The notes: generated from the sequence alone by a model not told the origin. Shown: positions 480 through 15,506, numbered from the stretch's first letter. The stretch is 64,000 bases of DNA from Pseudomonadota bacterium (GCA_021842465.1 JAKBZN010000001.1:1-64000); one strand, 5' to 3'. Translations and numbers: made by a program.

Positions 480-3155
480 CTAGGCGATCAGCCCCTCGAT
501 CTCGGCCGCCGACATCGGCCGGGCGAACAGGTTTCCCTGGGCATAGGCGCACCCTTGGGCATGGAGATAGCCGGCCTGTTCCTCCCGCTCCACCCCCTCG
601 GCCACCACGGCGAGGCGGAAATGGCGCGCAACGGCAAGCAACGCATGCACGATGGCGCAGCCGTCCGGGTCGTGCGGCAGGCCCTCCACGAACATCCGAT
701 CGATCTTGATCGCCCGGATGGGCAGGCGGCGGAGATAGCCGAGGGTCGAATAGCCGGTCCCGAAGTCGTCCAGCACCAGGCCGACGCCCAGCGCCCGCAA
801 CTCCCCAATGACGTCGTTGTCGGCCTCGCCGTCGCGGATGACCGTGCGTTCGGTGACCTCCAGGTTGATCATTCGGGGATCGACGTTGAAGCGCGCCAAG
901 GCGGAGCGCACCAACGCGGGCAAGGCATTGGAGCCGAACTCCCGCCCGGCGACATTGACCGAGATCGGGATGTCGAACTGAGGGTGGGCCTGGCGCCACC
1001 GTACGATCTGGGCGCAGGCCTCCTGCACGACCCAGAACGTGATCCGCTCGGACAGCCTGCCGGTTTCGGCCGCGTCGATGAACCGATCTGGCATCAAGAC
1101 CCCCCGAACCGGGTGGCGCCAGCGGACCAGCGCCTCCAGGCCGACGACCCGGCGCGTGGTCATGTCGACCTGCGGCTGATACTCGAGGAATAGCTGGGGC
1201 GAGTCCGCCTGCACCGCGCGCGCCAACTCCACGCCGAGACGCAACTCCTGCGCCTCGCGCTCGTAGCGGATGGGATTGAAGAAGTGCACCTGATTTCCGC
1301 CGTCGCGCTTGGCCTGATACATGGCGGCATCGGCGTACTTGAGCAGAGTTCCGATTTCCCGTCCGTGCTCGGGGTACAAGGCCACGCCGATCGAAGCCGA
1401 CACCTGCGCCATGACGTTCGGAACGAAATCACTGCGATGAAGGGCCCCGGCAACCTGAGCGGCAAGGTGGGCCACCTCCTGGCGGTGGGAAAAACCGTCA
1501 TAGACCACGACAAACTCGTCCCCACCCAGGCGCGCCACCCCTTCTCCGCCGACAACCTGGCGCAGCGTGTCCGCAACCGACTTGATCAGGGAGTCGCCGA
1601 CCAGATGACCGAGCGTGTCATTGACGTCCTTGAACCGATCGAGGTCGATGAGCAGCACGCCGACCCGGGTCTTGCTTTCGGCGGCCGACGACAAGGCGTC
1701 GCGCAACGACTCCCGGAGCAGGTTGCGGTTCGGCAATCCGGTCAACGCGTCATACCAAGCCAGTTGTTCGACCCGGCCCTCGACTTCGGCACGCTGGGCA
1801 GCCGCCAGGGTCAGCGAGACCATGAGCCCCGCGCTCGCGATGAAACCCACCTCCTCGTCGGTCCAGCGCCGCGGCACCGTATCGGCCGCGGCGATGACCC
1901 CGGCCGGTTCGCCCTCGATCAGGACGGGCGCGGACAGGAATGCGCGGATCCCGCGCCATCGCGCCCCCCTCCGGCCCGCGTCGTCGCGCCCGAGGTCTCC
2001 AAGAGCGAGGGGCGCGCGATCGTGCAGGCGCGCCATCGGTTCGACGACGCCGTTCTCCGGAAACGGCATTCCGACCCAGTCGCGCAGCAATCGTTGCTCC
2101 GGCCGCGAGTACACCGCCTCGCACACCAGCTTTCCGGACGCCCGATCCGTCCGCCAGAACCCGACGATCGACGTCCGCAGGGCATCCGCGCTCGATTGCA
2201 GGACCCCCGCGAGCGACTGCAGGAAATCCGCGTGGGACTGAACCGTCATCTGCATGAGGCGGTCCCCCAGGCGGTTCGCCGGCGCCTGCGCGCCGCCCTC
2301 GTCCCCCGCGTCGCGCACCTGCACGAGGATCCCGTCAACTCCCACAACCCCGACGAAATTCGTCACCGTCAGCGCGATGCGCCGCGCCGCCGCACCCTCG
2401 GCAATATTGCGCACCATTCCCGAAAGGGTGACCTCGGTACGGATCGGGCGCGACGGCAGTCCATCGACCGCGAGGAGGAACTCCCGCGCCGTCGCCTCGT
2501 CCAGCAGGTATTCGAACGGGACGCCTTGGGCCTCCGCGGCGCGTACGCCCAGAAACCCGCTGATCCGCCCTGCCGCCGTCAAGACTCGCCGATCCGGAGC
2601 CAACAACACCGTCGCCGCCACCGCCGGGTCGGCGTAGGCAGCCGCCTGCGCCGACCCCAAGCGCACCGCGGCATCCATGCCCGACTCGCGAATCAGCAAA
2701 ATGGCGATCAACTCGCCGTCGCTGCGCGGCATGGATGCGGAGATATGAAGCGTCAGCCGCTTCCCGCGCAGCGCCCCCCCGCGGACACGCAGGGTCATCG
2801 ATCTGCGCTCCAGCAAGCGGATCCAGAACCGGGACCAGCGCCGCGGGAACGCCCGCGGGCGCGCCACGACCGGCAATTCGGCGAGATTGCTGCCGACGAG
2901 ACCACCCTCGGCGGCTCCGACCATCCGGGCGAAGGCGCGGTTGGCGGCGAGAATCTGCGCCGCAGCGTTCAGACAGACGCAGGCCAGAGGAAGATGTTCG
3001 AACGCTTCCTGCTGAAGCGTCGATTCCAGCGCGGACTGACGAAGTGGGATAACGGCAAAACCCAACGCGCCTCCGATCTGGCCCGATCCCCGGAGCACCC
3101 CTGGGAACCGCGTTCCGGCTCGGACCGGAGAAGGATTCTGCCATGTCCTGGGCAA
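480..3155 (-). CDS. PAS/GAF-GGDEF-EAL diguanylate cyclase/phosphodiesterase
   Basis: Single long ORF; motifs ARLGGDEFVVVYDG and LEALVRWRHP; C-terminal IDRMFVEGLPHDPDGCAIVHALLAVARHFRLAVVAEGVE; N-terminus uncertain (TTG start in track). Confidence 0.93.
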   Translation of the reverse strand: MPRTWQNPSPVRAGTRFPGVLRGSGQIGGALGFAVIPLRQSALESTLQQEAFEHLPLACVCLNAAAQILAANRAFARMVGAAEGGLVGSNLAELPVVARPRAFPRRWSRFWIRLLERRSMTLRVRGGALRGKRLTLHISASMPRSDGELIAILLIRESGMDAAVRLGSAQAAAYADPAVAATVLLAPDRRVLTAAGRISGFLGVRAAEAQGVPFEYLLDEATAREFLLAVDGLPSRPIRTEVTLSGMVRNIAEGAAARRIALTVTNFVGVVGVDGILVQVRDAGDEGGAQAPANRLGDRLMQMTVQSHADFLQSLAGVLQSSADALRTSIVGFWRTDRASGKLVCEAVYSRPEQRLLRDWVGMPFPENGVVEPMARLHDRAPLALGDLGRDDAGRRGARWRGIRAFLSAPVLIEGEPAGVIAAADTVPRRWTDEEVGFIASAGLMVSLTLAAAQRAEVEGRVEQLAWYDALTGLPNRNLLRESLRDALSSAAESKTRVGVLLIDLDRFKDVNDTLGHLVGDSLIKSVADTLRQVVGGEGVARLGGDEFVVVYDGFSHRQEVAHLAAQVAGALHRSDFVPNVMAQVSASIGVALYPEHGREIGTLLKYADAAMYQAKRDGGNQVHFFNPIRYEREAQELRLGVELARAVQADSPQLFLEYQPQVDMTTRRVVGLEALVRWRHPVRGVLMPDRFIDAAETGRLSERITFWVVQEACAQIVRWRQAHPQFDIPISVNVAGREFGSNALPALVRSALARFNVDPRMINLEVTERTVIRDGEADNDVIGELRALGVGLVLDDFGTGYSTLGYLRRLPIRAIKIDRMFVEGLPHDPDGCAIVHALLAVARHFRLAVVAEGVEREEQAGYLHAQGCAYAQGNLFARPMSAAEIEGLIA

Positions 3156-3196: not shown

Positions 3197-5017
3197 ATGA
3201 CTACGCATTACACAATCCGCCCCGTCGATCTCGGTAGCCACACGTTCCACGTCACCGTCCAAATCGATGATCCGGACCCGCAAGGACAGCGGTTTTTCCT
3301 CCCGGCCTGGATCCCCGGCAGTTACATGATCCGCGACTTCGCACGCCACGTCCTGCGCGTGCGCGCGCGCGATGGGCGGGGACGGCCGGTGCCGATCGAG
3401 AAGGTAGACAAACACACTTGGCGCTGCGCGCCGACCGCGGCGGGGGCCCGCCGCCGGACCCCCGCACGCCCGGCATCCATCACCCTCGCATACGAGGTCT
3501 ATGCCCACGATCTTTCGGTGCGCGGGGCCCACCTCGACACCACGCACGGCTTTTTCAATGGCTCGAGCGTGTTCCTGCTCCCTCTGGGCCGAGAATGGGA
3601 CGCGTGCGAGGTGGAGATTCTCGCCCCCGAGGATTCGGCGGCCCACGACTGGCGTCTGACCACCGCGCTCGAGCCCTGCGCAGGAACCGCACGGGGCGGA
3701 TTCGGCCGCTATCGCGCCCAAGACTACGACGAACTGATCGATGCGCCGGTGGAAATGGGCCGCTTCGCTTCGCTGCGCTTCGAAGTCCACGGCGTGCCGC
3801 ATGAAATCGCCGTCACGGGCGCCGGCCCCCACCTCGATTCTGCGCGATTGGCATCGGATCTTGCGCAGGTCTGCGCCACGCACGCGCGCATGTTCGAGCC
3901 GCGCTCCCGCGTGCCGCCATTCGCGCGCTACGCCTTCCTGACCTTTGCCGTCGACGACGGCTACGGTGGCCTGGAACACCGCGCCAGCACGGCGCTGCTA
4001 TGCCGACGCGACGATCTTCCCTATGCCGGGATGCAGGCCAGCACCGAGGGATATCGCCGCTTCCTCGGCCTTGCGAGCCACGAATACTTTCACGCCTGGC
4101 ACGTCAAGCGGATCCGCCCCGCCGCCTTCATTCCCTACGACCTCGCGCGCGAGAACCACACCACGCTGCTCTGGGTGTTCGAAGGGTTCACGTCCTATTA
4201 CGACGACCTCGCCTTGGTGCGCTGCGGCCTGCTCCGCCCGGAGCAGTATCTCGACGTCCTCGCGCGGACGATGGCAACCGTCCTGCAACACAGCGGACGG
4301 CGCAAACAAAGTCTCGCCGAAAGCTCGTTCGACGCCTGGATCAAGTACTACAAGCCCGACGAGAACACCCCGAACGCCGTCGTGAGCTACTACCAGAAGG
4401 GCGCCCTGGTCGCGCTCGCCCTGGACCTGTCGATCCGTCGCGAAACGGCGGGGCGGCGATCGCTCGATGACGTAATGCGCCATCTTTGGCGACGCTACAA
4501 GCAAGCCGGAGCGGACTACGCCGGCGTTGCGGAGGACGAAATCGCCGCGATCGTCCAGGAGGCAACCGGGGTCGATGCCAGCCGATCGATCACCGCCTGG
4601 ACTCGAGAAACCGCCGATCCCGACCTGGCGGAGCAACTGCTCGATTTCGGGGTGCGGGTCGAGGCCGGACCAACCCTCGATCCCCCGCATTTCGCCCGCC
4701 TGGGGTGCCGGGTCGATCCGGCGGACGGCCGGATCCGTCTTGCCTTCGATGGCGGACCGGCCCAACGCGCGGGATTGTCGGCAGGCGACCAGATCGTTGC
4801 CGTCGAGGGATGGCGCGCAGGCAACAACCGACTGGATGCCCTGCTCGCGCGGATCCCGCCCGGCAGAACCGTCGAAATCCTGGCATTCCGTCGGGACGAA
4901 CTGCTGCGCTTTCCGGTGCGGATCGCAACGCAGCCTCCGGTTTCCTGGAAGTTGTCCCTCGACCCGCGACCGACCTCGTCCATCCGGCGACTGCGGACGG
5001 GGTGGATCGGGTCATGA
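3197..5017 (+). CDS. M61 family metallopeptidase with C-terminal PDZ domain
   Basis: ORF MTTHYTIRPVDLGSHTFHVTVQI; HEYFHAWHVKRIRP zinc motif; PDZ-like C-terminus. Confidence 0.9.
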   Translation: MTTHYTIRPVDLGSHTFHVTVQIDDPDPQGQRFFLPAWIPGSYMIRDFARHVLRVRARDGRGRPVPIEKVDKHTWRCAPTAAGARRRTPARPASITLAYEVYAHDLSVRGAHLDTTHGFFNGSSVFLLPLGREWDACEVEILAPEDSAAHDWRLTTALEPCAGTARGGFGRYRAQDYDELIDAPVEMGRFASLRFEVHGVPHEIAVTGAGPHLDSARLASDLAQVCATHARMFEPRSRVPPFARYAFLTFAVDDGYGGLEHRASTALLCRRDDLPYAGMQASTEGYRRFLGLASHEYFHAWHVKRIRPAAFIPYDLARENHTTLLWVFEGFTSYYDDLALVRCGLLRPEQYLDVLARTMATVLQHSGRRKQSLAESSFDAWIKYYKPDENTPNAVVSYYQKGALVALALDLSIRRETAGRRSLDDVMRHLWRRYKQAGADYAGVAEDEIAAIVQEATGVDASRSITAWTRETADPDLAEQLLDFGVRVEAGPTLDPPHFARLGCRVDPADGRIRLAFDGGPAQRAGLSAGDQIVAVEGWRAGNNRLDALLARIPPGRTVEILAFRRDELLRFPVRIATQPPVSWKLSLDPRPTSSIRRLRTGWIGS

Positions 5018-5293
5018 CTGCGGGCCACGACGGGAACGATCATGCCCCTTGGCCCCTCGCACGGCCCCTGCTCTCGGCACAATCCCGTCCCGCGTTGCCC
5101 CGTCGGGCGAGGCCTGCGCGCCCCGCAGGGACGCCCCCGCGCTCCGGGGCCCAAGAATCCAGTTCCAATGCGGTCGAATTGCCGAAAAATTAGCCACTAG
5201 CAGATACGCTGGCGCGGCCAGGCAAACCACGAGCAAGGCTGCTCGGACCGCATATCCAACAAATCTCGTCCCCGCCTGCATTGCACGTTTCAC
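5012..5293 (-). CDS. small single-TM hypothetical protein, translationally coupled to the upstream GT2
   Basis: GTG start overlaps the GT2 stop codon (GTGA); hydrophobic stretch FVGYAVRAALLVVCLAAPAYLLVANF. Confidence 0.45.
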   Translation of the reverse strand: MKRAMQAGTRFVGYAVRAALLVVCLAAPAYLLVANFSAIRPHWNWILGPRSAGASLRGAQASPDGATRDGIVPRAGAVRGAKGHDRSRRGPQS

Positions 5294-6696
5294 CGACTGG
5301 ACTCCACCCGGTGGCGCCGAATCTCGCCCCATCGGTCTCTCGACAACTGAAAGGTTCCAATCATCCGCTCGATCGCCACCAATTGCCGAAAGCCGACGAA
5401 CTCAAGCGATCCCCAAAATGCCACCTTGAGCGTATCGCGCAACCGCATGTATCGATGGACGACAAGGTTATCGATCAGAACACCGGCTGCGTTCAGCCAC
5501 ATTCCCCATAAAACCGCGAAGAGGAAAAACAAGGTCGCAAACGGCACGTTGACCCAACCCAGAAGCGCGAACAGGGCAAACCCTATGTACCCCAGGAACT
5601 CCACCAATGGGCCCAACAATTCAAAAAAGAAAAAATATGGAAAGCCGATGAGCCCAACCTTGCCATAGCGCGGATTCATAAACATATCGCGGTTGTGCCA
5701 TAGGCAATCCACCAAGCCGCGCTGCCAACGGTTTCTTTGCTGAAGCAGGGAGCGGATGTCCGAAGGCACTTGCGTCCAACATACCGGCTCCGGGACAAAG
5801 CCGACGTCATAGGCGATCCCGTGATCTACGCAATGCCGATGTAAACGGATAACGACATCCATGTCCTCCCCGACCGTCTTTCGGTAACCACCCACCGCAG
5901 TCATCAAGTCCTTGCGAAATACGCCGAACGCGCCGGAAATGATCAACAGACTATCGACTCGATGCCAACCCATCCGCCCCACAAAAAAACCGCGCATGTA
6001 TTCGGCTGCCTGCATACATTCGATCAGACGCGCTGGCGCGCGGACTTCCCGGACTTGGGCATTTTCTACCCGGCATCCGTTCAGAACCCGCACCGCCCCT
6101 CCTACGGCAACCAACCGCTTGTTGAGGAGAAACTTCTGCCCCAAACGCAACAGCGAATCCTCTTCCAGGATTGAATCGGCATCGATCGTGCAAACCAATG
6201 GAAAGCGCGCGTATTCCATGCCGGCGTTGAGCGCATCGGCCTTTCCGCCATTTTCCTTGGCGAGAATCCAAAGATTTGGGTGGACGCTGGACAGATAGAG
6301 CTGCTTGATCGGCTGGTGCGGGAAAACTTTCCGAACGGGCCGCTCAACCGGATATGCCTTATAGGCGTCCAGTAAGGTCGCCAGGGTTTCATCGAGGGAT
6401 CCGTCGTCGACAACGACGACTTCGTGCTCCGGATACTCGGCATTTAGGATCGACGTGACCGTAGACGTAATGGTTGCGTGCTCGTTGAACGCCGGGACTA
6501 TTACCGAGATCGGCCGTACATTGGCATCCCGCATTCTCCTGCGCAGGGCATCCAGATCGCCGACCGCCGATGCACCCGCCTCGACCTCTCGGAATGCATA
6601 CGACGTCACCATCGTATATCCAATATTTAGCACCAGAAAATAGACGAATACCGCAATCTGGAATGCCAACAAAAGAACGGCGACCGCTTCAAGCAT
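5290..6696 (-). CDS. family 2 processive glycosyltransferase, membrane (PgaC/IcaA-like)
   Basis: VDDGSLDET, TIDADS, GEDMD and QQRNRWQRG motifs plus C-terminal TM segments; ATG at 6696 (MLEAVAVLLL). Confidence 0.88.
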   Translation of the reverse strand: MLEAVAVLLLAFQIAVFVYFLVLNIGYTMVTSYAFREVEAGASAVGDLDALRRRMRDANVRPISVIVPAFNEHATITSTVTSILNAEYPEHEVVVVDDGSLDETLATLLDAYKAYPVERPVRKVFPHQPIKQLYLSSVHPNLWILAKENGGKADALNAGMEYARFPLVCTIDADSILEEDSLLRLGQKFLLNKRLVAVGGAVRVLNGCRVENAQVREVRAPARLIECMQAAEYMRGFFVGRMGWHRVDSLLIISGAFGVFRKDLMTAVGGYRKTVGEDMDVVIRLHRHCVDHGIAYDVGFVPEPVCWTQVPSDIRSLLQQRNRWQRGLVDCLWHNRDMFMNPRYGKVGLIGFPYFFFFELLGPLVEFLGYIGFALFALLGWVNVPFATLFFLFAVLWGMWLNAAGVLIDNLVVHRYMRLRDTLKVAFWGSLEFVGFRQLVAIERMIGTFQLSRDRWGEIRRHRVESSR

Positions 6697-7792
6697 AGGC
6701 GGGCTGCGGCATGTGCAATGCATACCGACTGATGTCGCGGGCGAATCGGTCCGGGTACTCCAAAGCCCGCTCCAGGGCCTCGCGCCCCGCCTCGCCAAGG
6801 GCCGCAAGTGTTACCGCGGCGTTGAACCGCACATAGAACGCTGGCGCAGTCAGGCAATCGGAGAGCGCAGCGACCACGTCGGGGGCCGTGCCGCGCAAGT
6901 ATTTCGCGCCGACCGCGCGAATTTCCCATTCCGGGTCACTCAAGGCTCGCAGCAATACAGCATGCGTCGGCTGAATCAGTCCGACCGCACGCACGCACGC
7001 AATGCGGGCACCCTTCGGCGCATGTTCCCACCCATAACGCGCTGCCAATTCGGGAACCAGTGGGCTTAGCCCCGCCTTGCCGACCGCCGAGATAAAATCG
7101 AGTGTCAATGGATCCTGCAATGAGGTACCTGCGAAAAGCTCGCGAACCGCATCAACGGCCGCATCGGCGCCTCGGCGCTCTGTCAATGCAACGATCGCCG
7201 TCCGAAACAGCCATTCGTTGTAACTTCCTGACAGCGCCGGCCGCTCCTGCAGTCGGTCCCACAGGAATCGCAGTTCCGATGACTGATCGACAAATTGCGC
7301 CAAGCAACCCAAACCTGCCGCATATACTTCCGGATGGGCCTCATGGCACACGATGTCATCGACCATCGGGCGCTGCTCAATCGCTCCGAGCTTGCCGAGC
7401 AGTTCCAGTGCGACAACCCGGCTGCCCCACTTTCCTCGCGTGACTGATGATCCGAGGTGCCGGACCGCATCTCCATACCACGGCGCGGATCGCAAGCGTC
7501 CCAAAAGAGGGGGGGCGTCGTCGGCATCCAGCGCCCTCGCCAAGGCCTTCCGGTCCACACGACGTCGCAAGTCAACGGTCACGTCATCCGGCCAGACGTC
7601 GCTGGATATCGCCTTCCGGTAGAGATTGGTCGCGCGGTTGATCGCACGGGTCCGACGCTCCAGCACCAACTTCTGGACCACAAGAAAGGTAACCAATGCC
7701 GACAAGGAAATGCCGATGGCCAAGACGACAGCCTCCAGGACAACAAGCGACACAAGCGAGTTGACCAAACCAACGAGAGGAGGGGCCGTCAT
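6689..7792 (-). CDS. HEAT-repeat protein with N-terminal transmembrane segment
   Basis: MTAPPLVGLVNSLVSLVVLEAVVLAIGISLSALVTFLVV TM; repeated helical units such as LSDPEWEIRAVGAKYLRG; stop overlaps GT2 start. Confidence 0.75.
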   Translation of the reverse strand: MTAPPLVGLVNSLVSLVVLEAVVLAIGISLSALVTFLVVQKLVLERRTRAINRATNLYRKAISSDVWPDDVTVDLRRRVDRKALARALDADDAPPLLGRLRSAPWYGDAVRHLGSSVTRGKWGSRVVALELLGKLGAIEQRPMVDDIVCHEAHPEVYAAGLGCLAQFVDQSSELRFLWDRLQERPALSGSYNEWLFRTAIVALTERRGADAAVDAVRELFAGTSLQDPLTLDFISAVGKAGLSPLVPELAARYGWEHAPKGARIACVRAVGLIQPTHAVLLRALSDPEWEIRAVGAKYLRGTAPDVVAALSDCLTAPAFYVRFNAAVTLAALGEAGREALERALEYPDRFARDISRYALHMPQPAYA

Positions 7793-8208
7793 CCGCGCAA
7801 CACCCGAATTGCCATCACATGTACCAAGAACCGCCGTCCATCGGGAACATCCGAAATCGTCAGCACGCGACGACGCCTCCCCGCGGCGCATCATTACAAT
7901 GCCGGGGTTCCATTTCAGGATCGTCCCATGAGTTCTCCGAAGACAATGCCTTGAAAAACGACACTTCCTTATCCGGTCGGTGCATCACCAATGTTGATTT
8001 TATTTGCCAGCCGGGATCTTTCTGAAATTCCGCAGCGCATCTTTTGGGGCGAAAGCCGGTTCTGGCCTGAGACGCGCGCCAAAAAAGTGCGACATTTCGA
8101 ATGCTTTTTGGCCCAACCGAGGCGCCGGTGGCGACGCACAATGGCCGATCGACTGTCGTTCTTGCCCCGGGGCGGGGAAACCCGAATGCGCCATTTCCTG
8201 AGGGATAG

Positions 8209-9504
8209 ATGCGCCCATATGTGGTAGCGGTGTACCGTATCGTAGCGTTGTTTTGCACCGGAATCGCCGTTGCCTGGTCTGCGCCAGCACTTGGCGGTCC
8301 GATAGGGTTCGACCAACAATTCCAGGAAGCTCGCGATCTCGCGCTCCATGGGCACCGGAAAGCGGCGATCGCCGCGTACACCAGGCTACTCGAACGCTCC
8401 CCAAACAACTCGGATGTGCTGCTTGGTCGGGGCCGCGTTTATTCCTGGATGGGAAACTGGCCGGCCGCGGAAACAGACCTCCAGGCCGCGATCAAGGCCT
8501 CGCCCCATTATGCAGATGCATGGTCGGCGCTGGGAGACATGTATCTGTGGTCAGATCGCCCGAAATTGGCGGCAAAGGCGTACGGCCGCTGGGCGGCCCT
8601 TGCCCCCGACGACCCGAGGCCGCTGCTACAGCGCGGACGGGCCGAGCGCAACGCCGGCGACAGGAAATCGGCACGAGCCGACTTCCTGCAGGCATCGAAA
8701 CTAGGCGCGCCCCCCGCGGAAGTCAGCGCATATCTCGCCTCGCTCCAGCCTATCCTGGGCATCAGCACTCGGCCGCCCGATGCCGTAAGCCGCAACGGAT
8801 TTCCGTGGTCCGCCAGCTTTGGGGTCGACTACACCGCGTTCCCGTCCGGCGGACTGCACTGGTTCGACACGACCACCACGATCCGTCGCCACTTCGCGTC
8901 GGGATCGCTGGGCTTTGAAGAACTTACCGCACATGCATTTCACGTCAACGATCGCGCGTGGGCAATCGACGACTACACCGACCTCTGGCACCGTGCGTAC
9001 ATCAACCTGCGCTACCAGCAGGGTACTGACATTCTGTTCCCCCGCACCCGCTACCGGGCCGAACTGTTTCAAGGCGTCGGACACGGATGGGAATTTTCCG
9101 GTAGCTACGACCGTCTAAATTTCCCGACGCCGATCGAACTGATCGGCATCAGTGCGGCAAAATATCTCGGAGACTGGTACATTCGGTGGCGACATCTCTA
9201 CGTTCCAGGAACACCCGGAAATCCCTCATACAGCAATAGCGACCAAGTAATGGTGCGCGATTACTATCGCGGCGATGCGGACAACTACATTCAAGTGACC
9301 GCATCGTATGGGCTGATCGAGGAACCAACAGGGTTCATCCTGGGGCCCGCGTATGCCCAGCACAGTTGGGCAGCCAGCGCATCCATCGTACGATTTGTAA
9401 CCCCCCACGTCGGGTTCGGATTCGGATTGGATGGCGGGTACGGCGTCGAAGACGAGCCGTATAGCAGCATTGGTGCCTTCACGACCCTGTATTACCGATG
9501 GTAA
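8209..9504 (+). CDS. TPR-containing YaiO-like outer-membrane beta-barrel protein
   Basis: Signal peptide, TPR units (AIAAYTRLLERSPNNSDVLLGRGRVYSWMGNWPAAETDLQAAI), C-terminal barrel ending in YYRW. Confidence 0.78.
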   Translation: MRPYVVAVYRIVALFCTGIAVAWSAPALGGPIGFDQQFQEARDLALHGHRKAAIAAYTRLLERSPNNSDVLLGRGRVYSWMGNWPAAETDLQAAIKASPHYADAWSALGDMYLWSDRPKLAAKAYGRWAALAPDDPRPLLQRGRAERNAGDRKSARADFLQASKLGAPPAEVSAYLASLQPILGISTRPPDAVSRNGFPWSASFGVDYTAFPSGGLHWFDTTTTIRRHFASGSLGFEELTAHAFHVNDRAWAIDDYTDLWHRAYINLRYQQGTDILFPRTRYRAELFQGVGHGWEFSGSYDRLNFPTPIELIGISAAKYLGDWYIRWRHLYVPGTPGNPSYSNSDQVMVRDYYRGDADNYIQVTASYGLIEEPTGFILGPAYAQHSWAASASIVRFVTPHVGFGFGLDGGYGVEDEPYSSIGAFTTLYYRW

Positions 9505-11912
9505 GCGTCAAGGCCGACGATCCGGCCCCAGCCACCTCACAGGGAAAACGTTCCTGGATCGTCCTTCCAGCACGGCGCTTTCTTGCAGCCCTCCCGGCGC
9601 TCATAGTGGGATTCGCAGTGCTTCGACTGGGGGGGCTGACCGAAGGTTGGCCGCCCGGCGGCAGCGGCCATGGCGTGTCACTGGTCGCGGGCGCGTTTGC
9701 GGATGATCTACTGGCGCTTGGCCGGTATCTTCCTGCGCTGTTTCTGGTCTCCTGGCCGATCCTCGCGCTGCCCTCGAAACGCGCCCGGCTCATGGCCATC
9801 GGCAGCCTATGGTCGGTGCTCACCATGGCGCAATTCGGATTGACAGGCTATTTTCTGATCACCCGCGTTCCACTGGGAGCGGACCTTTTCCGATACTCCT
9901 GGAGCGAGATCAAAACCTCCGCAGCCGGCGGATACCACCCAGAGCCCGTACTCGTCTTGACGGAGGTAGTCGCTTTAGCCTTGATTTGGCTTGTGCTGAG
10001 ATGGCGCATCGGCCATAGAGAACACCTGCCATCCAGTCGCGCGACGGCAGCAACCCTCACGCTGAGCGTCGCCTTGTTTTTTCTTGCCCCTCACGAACTC
10101 CCGCTGGCAGCGGAAACAGAGTACGTCCATGACTTGCGGCTGTCAAAACTCGCGGCGTTCCTCGACAGCAACCGCGGCGCTCTCGCTGCGGATCTCTTCT
10201 CCGGCCCGCCCACCGGCAACTCGGGCAAGGGCATAGGCCGTGGCGGCCCGATACTGGGTTTTCGTTACCTGGATCCCCACTATCCGTTCCTCCATGCAGA
10301 GCAGACGCCCGATGTGCTCGGCGCGGAGTTCGCCGGCAGTAGGAATGTGCCGCCAAACTTTGTTTTCCTGATCGTGGAAGGGTTGGGCCGCTCTTTCTCT
10401 GGCACCGGCGCAACTTTGGGCAGTTTCACGCCATTCCTGGACAGCCTTGCCGCCCACAGCCTCTATTTCGAGAATTTCCTGTCCGGACAAGGGCGAACCT
10501 TTGCAGTACTGCCAACGATATTCGGATCGTTGCCATATGGGAAGGAAGGGTTCTCCGCCTTGGGGAACAGGATGCCCGATCAGCCCACTTTGCTGAGCAT
10601 CCTGAAAGAGCAGGGGTATCGGACAAGATTTTTTTGCGGATGGGACCCGAACTTCGACAACGAGACCGGGTTTCTGCAACGACAACTCGTCGATGAGATA
10701 TATGGCGTGCACGACTTCGGCCGCAATCCTCCCCCCCAAAGTTATTGGGGTTTCGAGGATAACGATCTCGTGTCGTTTGTACTTGCCCACGAAGCCCATG
10801 CGATTTCCAAGCCGTTCGTGGACATCATTCAAACGATCACGATGCACACACCCTACTGGTTCCAGGGCCAGAAACATTACTATCCGCAACTGGAACGGAG
10901 ACTGGACGAACTTGGCATTCCGGCAGACCAACGGAGCCGCTATCGCAACCAGCGCGCAATCTACACTTCGATTCTGTACACCGACGACGCCCTGCGACGC
11001 TACTTCCATGAAGCAGCGAAACAACCCTGGTTCCGGAACACGATATTCCTCATCACCGGCGATCACCGTCTCCCGGAAATTCCGGAGGGGGAGTGGATCG
11101 ACCGCTATCATGTTCCTCTGATTGTCTACTCGCCCATGCTAACGAAGCCGCGGCGCGTCAAAGCCATTTCATCCCAATTCGACATCGCGCCCAGCGTCCT
11201 GGCGTTTTTGTCCAAAAACTACGGCCTGAACAGTCCGCCGCGCGTCACCTGGGTCGGATCGGGACTCGATCTCGGAATGACCTTTCGCGATGTCCATGAG
11301 ATTCCGCTCATGCAGACCAAGGCGACCTTCAACTCCTTTGTGCATGGCCTCTGGGCAGTAAGCCGGAACGCGCTATATCGGCTTCATGACGGGATGGACG
11401 CCGAACCGGCGCAGAATCCCGCAATGCTGACGGAAGTGGAGGCGCGATTCCGCGCGTTCCGCGCGGCAAACGACGAATTTTTGCGCACTGACCGATTAAT
11501 GCCGCGAAGCGCGGCCACCCAGTTGGCTTCCTATGCGGAGGTAAAACGCGCGTCGGTCGTCTCGGTGAAGGCCAAGGCGGGGCCGACCTTGGCAATCAGC
11601 GAAGTTCGGATCGCGACGAGCCGCCGGAGGCAACTCGCTGTTGACATGACGGCCACGAACTCAGGCCAACGGGATAGTCCGGCACTGGTGCCGATCGCCG
11701 TGATCGAGACGGATCGCGGGAAGGAACTGCTGGAGTCTTATGGGATACCTCTACCCATTCCGCGCCACGGAAAAATGCACCAGCGTATCGCGCTCAATAC
11801 CGAACACGTACCAGCGGGCCATTACTACCTAGCCGTGATCCTTGCCGACCCGAACAAGGGTGGTCGCGTCGGCGACGGGCGATTCCACATCCCCATCACC
11901 ATCGCGCCATGA
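9498..11912 (+). CDS. LTA synthase-like / alkaline phosphatase superfamily membrane enzyme
   Basis: N-terminal TM helices; NFVFLIVEGLGRSFSG, GQGRTFAVLPTIFGSLP, FLITGDHRLPE motifs; overlaps upstream gene. Confidence 0.82.
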   Translation: MVSVKADDPAPATSQGKRSWIVLPARRFLAALPALIVGFAVLRLGGLTEGWPPGGSGHGVSLVAGAFADDLLALGRYLPALFLVSWPILALPSKRARLMAIGSLWSVLTMAQFGLTGYFLITRVPLGADLFRYSWSEIKTSAAGGYHPEPVLVLTEVVALALIWLVLRWRIGHREHLPSSRATAATLTLSVALFFLAPHELPLAAETEYVHDLRLSKLAAFLDSNRGALAADLFSGPPTGNSGKGIGRGGPILGFRYLDPHYPFLHAEQTPDVLGAEFAGSRNVPPNFVFLIVEGLGRSFSGTGATLGSFTPFLDSLAAHSLYFENFLSGQGRTFAVLPTIFGSLPYGKEGFSALGNRMPDQPTLLSILKEQGYRTRFFCGWDPNFDNETGFLQRQLVDEIYGVHDFGRNPPPQSYWGFEDNDLVSFVLAHEAHAISKPFVDIIQTITMHTPYWFQGQKHYYPQLERRLDELGIPADQRSRYRNQRAIYTSILYTDDALRRYFHEAAKQPWFRNTIFLITGDHRLPEIPEGEWIDRYHVPLIVYSPMLTKPRRVKAISSQFDIAPSVLAFLSKNYGLNSPPRVTWVGSGLDLGMTFRDVHEIPLMQTKATFNSFVHGLWAVSRNALYRLHDGMDAEPAQNPAMLTEVEARFRAFRAANDEFLRTDRLMPRSAATQLASYAEVKRASVVSVKAKAGPTLAISEVRIATSRRRQLAVDMTATNSGQRDSPALVPIAVIETDRGKELLESYGIPLPIPRHGKMHQRIALNTEHVPAGHYYLAVILADPNKGGRVGDGRFHIPITIAP

Positions 11913-12823
11913 CGACCGCCAGGCAGGCTGCCGCTTTGCTGGTCTGGATGGCGCTGATGATATCTCCCGCCATGGCTGCCGACCGCGCCACCTGGATCTG
12001 GGAGGCGGATGCACTCCACCTTATCGAGCATCCATCGGATGAGCGGCAAGCGCTATCGCTGCTGCGGCGCCGGCACATCACCACACTTTACCTTTACGCC
12101 GACGCGGTTCACGACCGTGGCCTGCTAGTCCGTCGAGCGGCCGATTACCGGTACTTCGTCAAGCGCGCTCATGAGGCGGGCCTGCGCGTCTTCGCTCTCC
12201 TCGGCCCCGACTGGCGGACCAGGGCCACGACGATGTTCCAGCGGGTTTTGGACTACAACCGTTCATCCTCCCCATCTGGGCGATTCGATGGGGTGAACCT
12301 GGACATCGAACCATACAACATCAACGGGTGGAGACGAAACGAACGTGAACTGCTCCGTCAATACCTGGATTTGGGCAGCGCTCTTATGGATTTGAAGCGC
12401 GCTTCACGCCAAACAATCCTGGTCGGACCTGCGATTCCGTTCTGGTTTGCGGATATCTCGGTACGATGGCGTGGCGTTTCCGGCAGCGTCACCCGACACG
12501 TACTCGCAATGTTCGACTATGCGGTCGTGATGGATTACCGCAACCAAGCGGCAGGGGGGGATGGAATTATCGAGCATGCCGCTGCATCCCTGGCAATTGC
12601 CCGGCACCAAGGCAAACCAGTCTTGCTCGGCATCGACGTGGAGCCGGGCGGGCTGGGAAAGACCTCGTTCTGGGGACGGACAGAAGGCGACATGCATTAC
12701 GCGCTCTCCGAAACAAAACGAGCCTTCCAAGCCAACCCAGCCTTCACCGGCTTTTCGATTGAAGACTTTGGTGCGTATCGCGCCTGGCTGACTCGCCAAG
12801 CGCGCGGGATCGGCGGCAAATAA
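11909..12823 (+). CDS. secreted TIM-barrel glycosidase-like protein
   Basis: Signal peptide; FDGVNLDIEPY resembling DxxxDxE of GH18-type barrels; ATGA overlap with upstream gene. Confidence 0.6.
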   Translation: MTTARQAAALLVWMALMISPAMAADRATWIWEADALHLIEHPSDERQALSLLRRRHITTLYLYADAVHDRGLLVRRAADYRYFVKRAHEAGLRVFALLGPDWRTRATTMFQRVLDYNRSSSPSGRFDGVNLDIEPYNINGWRRNERELLRQYLDLGSALMDLKRASRQTILVGPAIPFWFADISVRWRGVSGSVTRHVLAMFDYAVVMDYRNQAAGGDGIIEHAAASLAIARHQGKPVLLGIDVEPGGLGKTSFWGRTEGDMHYALSETKRAFQANPAFTGFSIEDFGAYRAWLTRQARGIGGK

Positions 12824-12826
12824 GAA

Positions 12827-13546
12827 TCACCACGCCACCGGCGTTCGCCCCATCGCGACCAGGAACTGGTTCGCCTTGGAGAAATGCCCGCAGCCCAGGA
12901 ATGGCACCGGGGGCCGCCGCGCGGACAGCGGCGAAGGATGATTGGCGGCCAGGACGCAGTGTCGCCCTTCGGCCACGGCGTCGATCCGGCCGCGGCGCGC
13001 CTGGGCGTGCCCTCCCCAGAGCAGGAAGACCTTGGGAGCGGGATCGCGCGCCACGGCGTCGAGTACGGCGTCCGTGATCGCCTCCCACCCCTTCCCGGCG
13101 TGGCTGTTGGCCCGGCCGTCCTCCACCGTCAGGACCGCGTTCCACAGCAGGACTCCCTGGCGCGCCCAGGAAGCGAGATTGCCCGTGGACGGAATCTGCG
13201 CGCAGAACCCTTCGCGCTGGAGTTCGCAGAAAATGTTGCGCAGGCTGGGCGGTAGCCGCACGCCCTCGGGAACGGAAAACGCCAGTCCGTGGGCCTGGCC
13301 GGGGCCATGATACGGATCCTGCCCGAGGATCACGACGCGAACGTTGCCGGGATCGCACCCCTCCAGCGCGGCGAAGGGATTGGACGGATAGACTCGCGCT
13401 CCCGCTGCGATCCGCGCATCGAGAAAGGCGGTCAGCCGGCGAACCGCCGCACCGTCGAGGGCTTCCTGGAGCGGCGCGCGCCAGCCTGCGGGGATGGCGT
13501 CGAACTGCGCTTGTACCGGAGCATGGAGACCTGGATTGGAATTCAT
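12827..13546 (-). CDS. ung: uracil-DNA glycosylase
   Basis: VVILGQDPYHGPGQAHGLAFSV and VLAANHPSPLSA motifs. Confidence 0.96.
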   Translation of the reverse strand: MNSNPGLHAPVQAQFDAIPAGWRAPLQEALDGAAVRRLTAFLDARIAAGARVYPSNPFAALEGCDPGNVRVVILGQDPYHGPGQAHGLAFSVPEGVRLPPSLRNIFCELQREGFCAQIPSTGNLASWARQGVLLWNAVLTVEDGRANSHAGKGWEAITDAVLDAVARDPAPKVFLLWGGHAQARRGRIDAVAEGRHCVLAANHPSPLSARRPPVPFLGCGHFSKANQFLVAMGRTPVAW

Positions 13547-13574
13547 AGGCGTAAGGGAAAGCACAGCGGGATCC

Positions 13575-13592
13575 CCCCTACCCGACTAGGGG
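13575..13592. promoter_or_regulatory. palindrome CCCCTAcccgacTAGGGG upstream of sulfur cluster
   Basis: 6-bp perfect arms, 6-bp spacer, about 100 bp upstream of the DsrE-like gene. Confidence 0.4.
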
Positions 13593-13692
13593 ATGGTTTC
13601 TCCAGAATGGGGGGATCCAGAATCGTCGGGAGAGTCCCTCCGGCGCGTCCCGCCGTCCACAACACAACGAAACCCAAGGGAGACGATACCCG

Positions 13693-14085
13693 ATGAGTTC
13701 CTCCAAGCTCAGCATTCTGGTCGTCAGCGGCAGCATCGAGCGCCTGCAGATGGCCGCGATGGTCGCATCGGTCGGCGCGGTGAGCGGAACGGCCGTCACC
13801 GTCCTGCTTTCGATGAATTCGCTGCAGTATTTCCTGCGCGACAATCCATCGCACCCGGTTCCGGAGGGAAGCTTCGGTCAGATCATGGCCGGCAAGAAGA
13901 TTCCGCCATTCAAGGAACTGTTTGAAAATGCCATCGATCTCGGCGACGCGAAAGTGCATCCCTGCTCGATGGCGATGGACGTCCTCGGCGTCAAGGCCGC
14001 GGATCTCGACGGATTTCTTGCATCTCCCCTGGGCCTGACGAAGTTCTTGACCGACAGCACGGGCGGGCAGATGCTTACGTTTTGA
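13693..14085 (+). CDS. DsrE family (DsrE2/peroxiredoxin-like) protein
   Basis: SILVVSGSIERLQMAAMVASVGAVSGTAVTVLLSMNSLQYF with downstream KVHPCSMAMDVLG. Confidence 0.8.
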   Translation: MSSSKLSILVVSGSIERLQMAAMVASVGAVSGTAVTVLLSMNSLQYFLRDNPSHPVPEGSFGQIMAGKKIPPFKELFENAIDLGDAKVHPCSMAMDVLGVKAADLDGFLASPLGLTKFLTDSTGGQMLTF

Positions 14086-14114
14086 ATCCGAGAACAAGAA
14101 GAAGGAGAGGCGCG

Positions 14115-14345
14115 ATGGCGAAGCGACATACGATCGACGCGCGGGGAACGTTCTGCCCCGGGCCGCTGATGGAACTGATCGCCGGAATCAAATTGGCGGA
14201 CGTCGGCGACGAACTCGAGGTGCTCTCGTCGGACGAGGGATCCTCGGCGGACATCCCGGAATGGATCCGCAAGGTCGGCCACGAAATGGTTTCCACATCC
14301 CAGGAGTCGGGGGTGTGGCACGTCGTGGTCCGCAAGATGAAGTAA
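14115..14345 (+). CDS. TusA family sulfurtransferase/carrier
   Basis: IDARGTFCPGPLMELIAGI (CPxP motif). Confidence 0.87.
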   Translation: MAKRHTIDARGTFCPGPLMELIAGIKLADVGDELEVLSSDEGSSADIPEWIRKVGHEMVSTSQESGVWHVVVRKMK

Positions 14346-14372
14346 TCCGGACGACAAGGGAGGAGACGAAAA

Positions 14373-15506
14373 ATGAAAATTTTGATCGTAGGCGGCGGGA
14401 TGGGCGGCACGATCCTGGCCAACAACCTGGCCCGGCGGCTGTCGCATGAGATGAAGACCAAGAAGGTACGCCTGACGATGCTCTCCGCATCGGACCGGCA
14501 CATGTATCAACCCGGGCTGCTGTACGTCGCGCTGGGGCGCGCCTCCACCGATGAACTCTATCGGGATCAGGCGAGCCTGCTCGAGCCGGGAATCGAGTTC
14601 CACGTCGACCCCGTGGAGGAGTTCGATCTCGACAAGAACCGGGTGAAGACCAAAAGCGGCCGCAGCTTCGATTACGACCTCATCGCCATCGCCACGGGTT
14701 CGCGCGCAGTGCCGGAAGAGATCCCCGGGTTGGCGGAGCATTCAATCAACGTCTACACCGAGGAAGCGGCGCTGAAGTTCTGGAAGACGATCAATGCGTT
14801 CCGCGGCGGGCGCATCGTGATCTCGGCGGGCGTGCCGCACAAGTGTCCGATGATCCCGCCCGAACTCACCTTCACGCTCTACGATTTCTTCCGCGATCGC
14901 GGCCTGGCCGACAAGGTCTCGATCCACTACACCTACCCGATCGGCCGCCTGCACAGTCTGGAGCCGGTCGGAAAATGGATGCAGGGTGAGTTCGACCAGC
15001 GCGGCATCACCAGCGAAACGCTGTTCAACATGAAGGAAGTGGACGGCGAGAAGAAGGTGATCCGCAGCATCGAAGGGGCGGAGACACCGTTCGATCTCCT
15101 GGTGGCGGTTCCCGGCCACAAAGGGATGGAAGTCATCGAGAAGAACAACCTCGGCAAGGGCGGCTGGATCCCGGTAAACCGCAACCGACTCAACATCGAG
15201 GGCCGTGAAAATGCGTTCGCCCTCGGCGACACCACCAACCTGCCGATCAGCAAGGCGGGGTCGACCGCCCACTTCGAGGCCGAAGCGCTGGCGGAGAACC
15301 TCGCGGCGATCGTGAAGATCGGTTCCCCCGTGCGGGACTACGACGGCAAGGTGTTCTGCTTCATCGAGGCGGGCAAAGACAAGGCCACCTACGCGATGTT
15401 CAACTACACCACACCCCCGGACCCGAAGCCGCCGACCAAGTCCATCCACTGGTTCAAGATGGCCTACAACCAGTTGTACTGGGCCAGCGCCCGCGGACTT
15501 TTGTAG
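14373..15506 (+). CDS. SQR-like NAD(P)/FAD-dependent oxidoreductase
   Basis: N-terminal KILIVGGGMGGTILANNL; two cysteines in SQR-like contexts (PHKCPMIPPE, KVFCFIEAGKD); FALGDTTNLPISKAGSTAHFEAE. Confidence 0.85.
   Translation: MKILIVGGGMGGTILANNLARRLSHEMKTKKVRLTMLSASDRHMYQPGLLYVALGRASTDELYRDQASLLEPGIEFHVDPVEEFDLDKNRVKTKSGRSFDYDLIAIATGSRAVPEEIPGLAEHSINVYTEEAALKFWKTINAFRGGRIVISAGVPHKCPMIPPELTFTLYDFFRDRGLADKVSIHYTYPIGRLHSLEPVGKWMQGEFDQRGITSETLFNMKEVDGEKKVIRSIEGAETPFDLLVAVPGHKGMEVIEKNNLGKGGWIPVNRNRLNIEGRENAFALGDTTNLPISKAGSTAHFEAEALAENLAAIVKIGSPVRDYDGKVFCFIEAGKDKATYAMFNYTTPPDPKPPTKSIHWFKMAYNQLYWASARGLL

Follow-up and report, generated by a model that had tools for sequence, protein, structure and literature searches.

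An exchangeable HEAT–GT2–YaiO gene block in a Pseudomonadota bacterium that probably encodes an unnamed class of synthase-dependent exopolysaccharide system

The window analysed here is the whole stretch of 64,000 nucleotides from a Pseudomonadota bacterium (GCA_021842465.1 JAKBZN010000001.1:1-64000). Between nt 5012 and 12823 it carries two divergent operons of tightly overlapping genes, with the order HEAT–GT2–small transmembrane (TM) protein on the minus strand and YaiO–LtaS-like–TIM on the plus strand. The locus and its flanks are laid out as follows:

3197..5017, plus strand: M61 peptidase, left flank of the slot and outside the system (Pfam, conserved position)
5012..5293, minus strand: small single-TM protein, ~93 aa from GTG 5293; the open reading frame reaches ATG 5332
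5290..6696, minus strand: GT2 processive-synthase-like membrane glycosyltransferase, 468 aa (motifs, TM segments, tree)
6689..7792, minus strand: HEAT-repeat protein, 367 aa; one N-terminal TM segment, then a positive stretch, HEAT domain predicted cytosolic
7793..8208, no strand: divergent intergenic region between the operons, 416 bp
8209..9504, plus strand: YaiO-family outer-membrane beta-barrel with N-terminal periplasmic TPR domain, 431 aa (PF19413, TIGR04390)
9498..11912, plus strand: LtaS/OpgB-like membrane transferase of sulfatase fold, 804 aa (LtaS active-site positions)
11909..12823, plus strand: secreted TIM-barrel protein, glycosidase-like, 304 aa (invariant motifs)
5018..12826, no strand: the whole exchangeable block, absent from G005 and G006 and with pgaABCD in its place in G001
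12827..13564, minus strand: uracil-DNA glycosylase (UDG), right flank of the slot and outside the system (named by sequence reading, conserved position)

All six open reading frames that an earlier sequence-only reading had placed in this interval were found there, five of the six with independent support, and only their start codons needed slight correction. Reading the junctions from the sequence puts the HEAT start at ATG 7792 rather than 7894 and the GT2 start at ATG 6696, which gives an 8-nt overlap with the HEAT gene; for the small TM gene GTG 5293 is the likeliest start, which gives a 4-nt GTGA overlap with the GT2 gene. On the plus strand the overlaps are 7 nt (YaiO/LtaS-like) and 4 nt (LtaS-like/TIM), so that every junction inside each operon does overlap, as had been claimed. 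The intergenic region holds one weak sigma-70-like match, on the minus strand. Pfam recognizes the HEAT protein (PF13646, 2e-9), the GT2 (PF13641, 9e-28), the YaiO protein (PF19413, 2e-19, plus TPRs) and the sulfatase/LtaS-like protein (PF00884, 2e-35). The six genes are present in the same arrangement in two genus-mates, at 81–97% identity per gene in one (L007) and 71–95% in the other (L008), and a contig search with the HEAT protein matched only one genus-mate (L012). In L008, from genus-mate G002, a 3.6-kb transposon-like insert at 11337-14894, with transposase-like and AAA-ATPase-like genes, splits the GT2 gene, which argues that the system is dispensable in that genus-mate.

The flanking M61 and UDG genes define a slot whose content differs within the genus. 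In two genus-mates without the system the slot is empty, the two genes being separated by 17 bp (G005) and 42 bp (G006). In a third, G001, they are 6.6 kb apart and enclose a complete pgaABCD operon, four genes on one strand (nt 2599-9073 of L062, G001:C55:46000-59000). All four of its products pass the NCBIfam cut-offs (in bits, PgaA 392 against 367, PgaB 675 against 322, PgaC 580 against 422 and PgaD 70 against 31), Pfam agrees with the assignments, and no YaiO or HEAT match was found in G001. Aligned with G001, the window loses nucleotide homology at 5023 and regains it at 12828, where the two flanking genes end. Comparing the slot in G005, G006 and G001 thus reveals that the six genes move as a unit, a block that has been gained, lost and swapped as a whole, and that the same slot also accepts a bona fide PNAG operon. 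Because a sister species has pgaABCD at this very site in place of the whole block, the exopolysaccharide reading of the locus receives independent support, and we regard this exchange as the best single piece of evidence for that function and the strongest functional clue. A gene for a GAF-GGDEF-EAL protein (480-3155 in the window) adjoins the slot on the M61 side in the genus of the window, as it does in the genus-mate with pga, and possibly provides a c-di-GMP link to whichever exopolysaccharide operon fills the slot.

The comparison also bears on whether the two operons belong together at all. Their divergent transcription across a 416-bp gap, and the different arrangement or splitting of the gene sets in G211 and G422, could mean that they are unrelated neighbours brought together by chance in this genus. 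However, three genus-mates either lack the two operons jointly or have both replaced, and in L029, L049, L050 and L051 all five families lie in a single operon on one strand. The one-strand operons and the shared gain and loss largely refute a chance association, to which we attach almost no credence.

The co-occurrence of the families is wide. PF19413 (YaiO) is present in 21 of the 369 genomes sampled from the class, and most of its neighbourhoods there include HEAT and GT2 genes. A HEAT profile built from YaiO loci and run on the same 369 genomes gave 18 high-scoring, full-length matches, set apart from generic HEAT proteins by score and coverage; generic matches of 75 bits or less, most of which sit in larger, unrelated HEAT proteins, were put aside. 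A YaiO match was found in 17 of the 18 genomes with a full-length HEAT match and was adjacent in 16 (Fisher p 1e-24, over the 369 class genomes). Because the profile was derived from YaiO loci this test is partly circular, and two out-of-sample searches carry more weight. Searching the phylum with the HEAT protein produced six new loci, with a GT2 gene adjacent in all six and YaiO plus a response regulator adjacent in five, and searching another order with the TIM protein produced three, every one of them a one-strand HEAT–GT2–YaiO(TPR)–LtaS–TIM operon. Within the class sample, strong TIM matches occur only in four genomes, each with YaiO and HEAT genes, and no HEAT relative was found on plasmids. 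The genome samples are even draws and not censuses, and gene starts in the distant loci were assigned mechanically. A failure of the families to co-occur in other genomes, which would have refuted the sequence-only reading, was therefore not encountered.

Two architectures can be distinguished. In many Pseudomonadota genomes the YaiO, HEAT and GT2 genes follow one another in that order as a compact operon, frequently with a stand-alone CheY-like response regulator upstream, so that the core architecture is response regulator–YaiO–HEAT–GT2, in which neighbouring genes usually overlap slightly (L010, L032, L036–L038, L044, L052, L053, L055 and others). The regulator gene overlaps or precedes YaiO (or HEAT) at all nine of these loci and likewise at L042, L043, L056 and L057; its product belongs to PF00072 and, judged by eye, keeps the Asp, Thr/Ser and Lys positions. 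At L055 the gene following the regulator encodes a CHASE3 histidine kinase. The second architecture is the LtaS–TIM variant, a one-strand, five-gene HEAT–GT2–YaiO–LtaS–TIM operon in the four loci named above (four genomes of another order), divergent in the genus of the window and split over two contigs in G422 (L031/L043). The regulator is missing from the variant operon, and the locus in the window likewise has no counterpart of the regulator present in most relatives. Beside the regulator–YaiO–HEAT–GT2 operon, two relatives carry a convergent PgaC-like second GT2 with a TPR protein (L036:3174-6145 and L044:11535-14478), which places two synthase/exporter pairs together. Nucleotide-sugar epimerase/dehydrogenase genes adjoin four relatives, as would fit polysaccharide synthesis.

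The GT2 retains the D, DxD, GED and QRNRW motifs intact; of its hydrophobic segments, one lies towards the N terminus and about four towards the C terminus. Its best curated match is PgaC/IcaA (TIGR03937, 2.6e-38), and one could therefore propose that the locus is merely a divergent Pga/PNAG or Bcs-like system, the more so as it exchanges with pgaABCD at the same site. Against this, its PgaC score is only 132 bits, well below the cut-off of 422 and far from the 580 of the true PgaC of G001, and its CelA score is 37.6 bits against a cut-off of 699. Only glycosyltransferase Pfam matches were found in the protein, with no PilZ and no EpsE/MshEN-type N-terminal domain. In the GT2 tree the reference PgaC, BcsA and YaiP sequences separate from the HEAT-linked GT2s (support 87/96), YaiP lying outside them on a long branch; the placement of NfrB is unresolved owing to its long branch. 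Moreover, neither the PgaB deacetylase and GHL13 domains, PgaD or the PgaA barrel, nor PilZ or BcsB, could be found among the six proteins of the locus. We consider membership of these known systems very unlikely. In four relatives (L024, L025, L027, L030) the GT2 motifs are altered (AQD, FAYD, FSYD; QRNNW, QRNFW, QRNHW) and the genes adjoin NAD-dependent sugar epimerases. To judge from their motifs, this group of relatives may have changed or non-functional synthases, and activity cannot be assumed for every copy.

The HEAT protein shares with nearly all members of a set of 29 homologues one TM segment and, directly after it, an Arg/Lys-rich stretch of net positive charge. By the positive-inside rule the repeats are predicted to be cytosolic, on the same side as the catalytic domain of the GT2 and, where present, the regulator. 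The protein had been proposed as an unusual accessory subunit; it is indeed a constant partner of this GT2, while its mode of action remains an inference.

The YaiO protein passes both curated cut-offs (PF19413, 70.5 bits against 23.9; TIGR04390, 72.3 against 32). Its AlphaFold2 model has a pLDDT of 46, with the TPR region (31-178) confident and the barrel not modelled; the predictions for this protein and for the TIM protein were shallow, resting on two sequences. YaiO barrels are shorter than those of PgaA or BcsC. For both reasons its role as a conduit is unproven.

In the LtaS-like protein, E294, T334, H450, D522 and H523 occupy the LtaS active-site positions and are conserved; E294, T334, D522 and H523 align with LtaS, in keeping with the Glu, Thr nucleophile and Asp-His metal ligands of LtaS-type transferases. 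A sulfatase CxPxR-type motif is absent at the nucleophile. Profile comparison gives VP1736, LtaP, LtaS2 and LtaS as its best solved relatives; it recognizes OpgB weakly (1e-9) and has no detectable match to BcsG. The scores remain far below the curated LtaS and OpgB equivalog cut-offs (32.7 against 970 and 31.9 against 572). The enzyme thus shares with the LtaS and OpgB phosphoglycerol transferases the fold, the catalytic residues and the layout of a TM domain followed by an extracytoplasmic catalytic domain, and differs in falling below every curated equivalog cut-off and in its acceptor, presumably the polymer of its own locus. The proposal that the product receives a phosphoglycerol-type decoration is supported to the extent that the active-site residues are kept; phosphoglycerol as the transferred group is inferred.

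Searches of Pfam and NCBIfam gave no match for the TIM protein, and GH18 was not recognized by Pfam even with the threshold relaxed to E 10. One solved relative was found by profile, 10yv_A (1e-20), deposited as a putative glycosidase. The AlphaFold2 model is of low confidence (pLDDT 46) with strands placed as expected, and a Foldseek search with it returned no match at E ≤ 0.001. The motifs F-x-G-x3-D132-x-E134-P and M208-x-Y210-R211 recur in twelve sequences, Bacillota included, with F126, G128, D132, E134, M208 and Y210 invariant in the 12 relatives. In enzymes of GH18 and clan GH-K, strand 4 ends with F-D-G-x-x-x-D-x-E and strand 6 carries Met-x-Tyr. The resemblance to the GH18 active site would imply N-acetylhexosamine in the polymer, and we treat it as a lead only. 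Further members of the family were found in Bacillus, Priestia and Paenibacillus (L058–L061, on Bacillota plasmids), where one is annotated 'amidase'; one Paenibacillus relative is a secreted Ig-like/fn3 protein whose gene adjoins a sulfatase-like hydrolase gene and lies near one for a lytic polysaccharide monooxygenase.

The small TM protein has no Pfam match of its own. Over its membrane segment it aligns with the products of L034:5463-6020, a TM plus PTP-like protein (weak PF22785/PF22784) directly after the GT2, and L021:2869-4305, which sits between the LtaS-like and HEAT genes; both belong to YaiO–HEAT–GT2 loci. Because the segment matches these anchors, the protein is probably a remnant, the truncated anchor of a TM-DSP-phosphatase-like protein.

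The known class of synthase-dependent systems combines a GT2 synthase, a TPR protein coupled to an outer-membrane barrel and periplasmic modification enzymes (PMC7112194), and the locus unites this gene set. Where systems of this class have a c-di-GMP-binding domain or co-polymerase, no PilZ or PgaD-like subunit was found in the six proteins; the position is taken by the HEAT protein, joined in relatives by the regulator. Alternatively, the GT2 could make a glycolipid or short surface glycan, with YaiO as an envelope enzyme or scaffold and the LtaS-like protein adding phosphoglycerol as OpgB does to periplasmic glucans. The short YaiO barrel domain (PF19413 spans 173 positions, TIGR04390 230), the many YaiO proteins without TPR, and the weak resemblance to OpgB, behind VP1736, leave room for such a product. 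However, the GT2 has the QxxRW and DxD signature of processive synthases together with about five TM segments, synthase, TPR/outer-membrane barrel and modification enzymes make up the known layout just cited, and the whole block sits where a sister species has pgaABCD. On balance we regard a glycolipid or short glycan as unlikely.

Several known systems come close to the locus. Like pgaABCD of E. coli and G001, the locus has a GT2 synthase, a TPR/outer-membrane barrel and a periplasmic glycosidase, and it shares the slot of a sister species; unlike pgaABCD it lacks the PgaB deacetylase/hydrolase and PgaD, has the YaiO barrel instead of the PgaA barrel, and adds a HEAT subunit and an LtaS-like transferase. 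In the type II Bcs system of E. coli, the nascent chain receives its decoration from BcsG, with BcsZ responsible for trimming and BcsC for export (PMC11470070). By analogy this pEtN-cellulose system would be the nearest mechanistic counterpart, with a synthase, a TPR/barrel protein, a glycosidase (BcsZ) and a polymer-decorating membrane transferase of the alkaline-phosphatase superfamily, but the GT2 of the locus has no PilZ, BcsB is missing, HEAT stands in place of the BcsE/R/Q/F set, and the transferase is LtaS/OpgB-like without a detectable BcsG match. The parallel drawn earlier with E. coli yaiO and yaiP holds in part: the yaiS-yaiP-yaiX-yaiO cluster is related in combining a YaiO barrel with a GT2, but its arrangement differs, with no HEAT, LtaS-like or TIM gene, and the E. 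coli-type yaiO loci (L022, L023, L026, L028, L041) all have a different GT2 and no HEAT gene. In E. coli K-12 an IS2 element breaks the acyltransferase-like yaiX between yaiP and yaiO (L041:4845-6873), and the cluster may be non-functional in the laboratory strain. NfrA/NfrB (NGR glycan) and the Xanthomonas xagABCD/sfz clusters likewise join a GT2 to a cytosolic accessory or regulatory module, partners and a hydrolase. In Sfz2 the GT2 itself carries the accessory, as a fused EpsE-like domain at its N terminus (PMC8250860), whereas the locus encodes its HEAT accessory separately, as a membrane-anchored protein; on account of the domain fused to the sfz GT2, we rejected xagABCD and the sfz stalk cluster as known counterparts. 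By the sequence tests run, the locus is neither Pga, Bcs, Nfr/Xag nor yaiOP.

We therefore consider it likely that the block encodes, in full, a synthase-dependent exopolysaccharide secretion system whose class has no name in the literature searched. The pathway first suggested from the sequence is supported by co-occurrence and by the exchange with pgaABCD, the sugar polymer itself being inferred, without an observed polymer or a tested gene. In the mechanism we propose, the GT2, to judge from its motifs and TM layout, would polymerize a sugar and thread the chain across the inner membrane; the substrate is probably an amino sugar, supplied by a UDP donor. The membrane-anchored cytosolic HEAT protein is its constant partner, with an inferred regulatory or scaffolding role, and in most relatives probably couples the synthase to the stand-alone response regulator encoded upstream; their co-occurrence is observed and the coupling inferred. 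In the periplasm the LtaS-like enzyme may decorate the polymer with the head group of a phospholipid, for which phosphoglycerol is the likeliest candidate, donor and acceptor both being inferred; the TIM-barrel enzyme is inferred to trim or release the polymer; and the TPR/YaiO protein, going by family and position, may guide it through the outer membrane. A more general formulation, which we put forward tentatively and would not yet favour, is a widespread phospho-regulated machine running from the regulator through a membrane HEAT adaptor to the GT2 and replacing c-di-GMP sensors, with, in the present locus, a phosphoglycerol-decorated polymer and an unclassified glycoside hydrolase family.

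A survey of the field counts five synthase-dependent exopolysaccharide systems and names neither 'YaiO' nor 'HEAT' (PMC7112194). Our literature search found no paper joining HEAT repeats, YaiO and GT2, although subscription papers were not covered and absence is not proof; YaiO appears in the literature found mostly as a PCR detection marker for E. coli. A match to an already characterized polysaccharide system, which would have overturned the original suggestion, was not met with in the literature searched. Since the cassette recurs across Pseudomonadota, biofilm polymers have probably been missed in many genomes. The YaiO family gains a likely role, and the HEAT subunit and the response regulator become candidate controls on a polymer synthase. 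The slot between the M61 and UDG genes is a natural exchange site, filled by the new system in one sister species and by pgaABCD in another.
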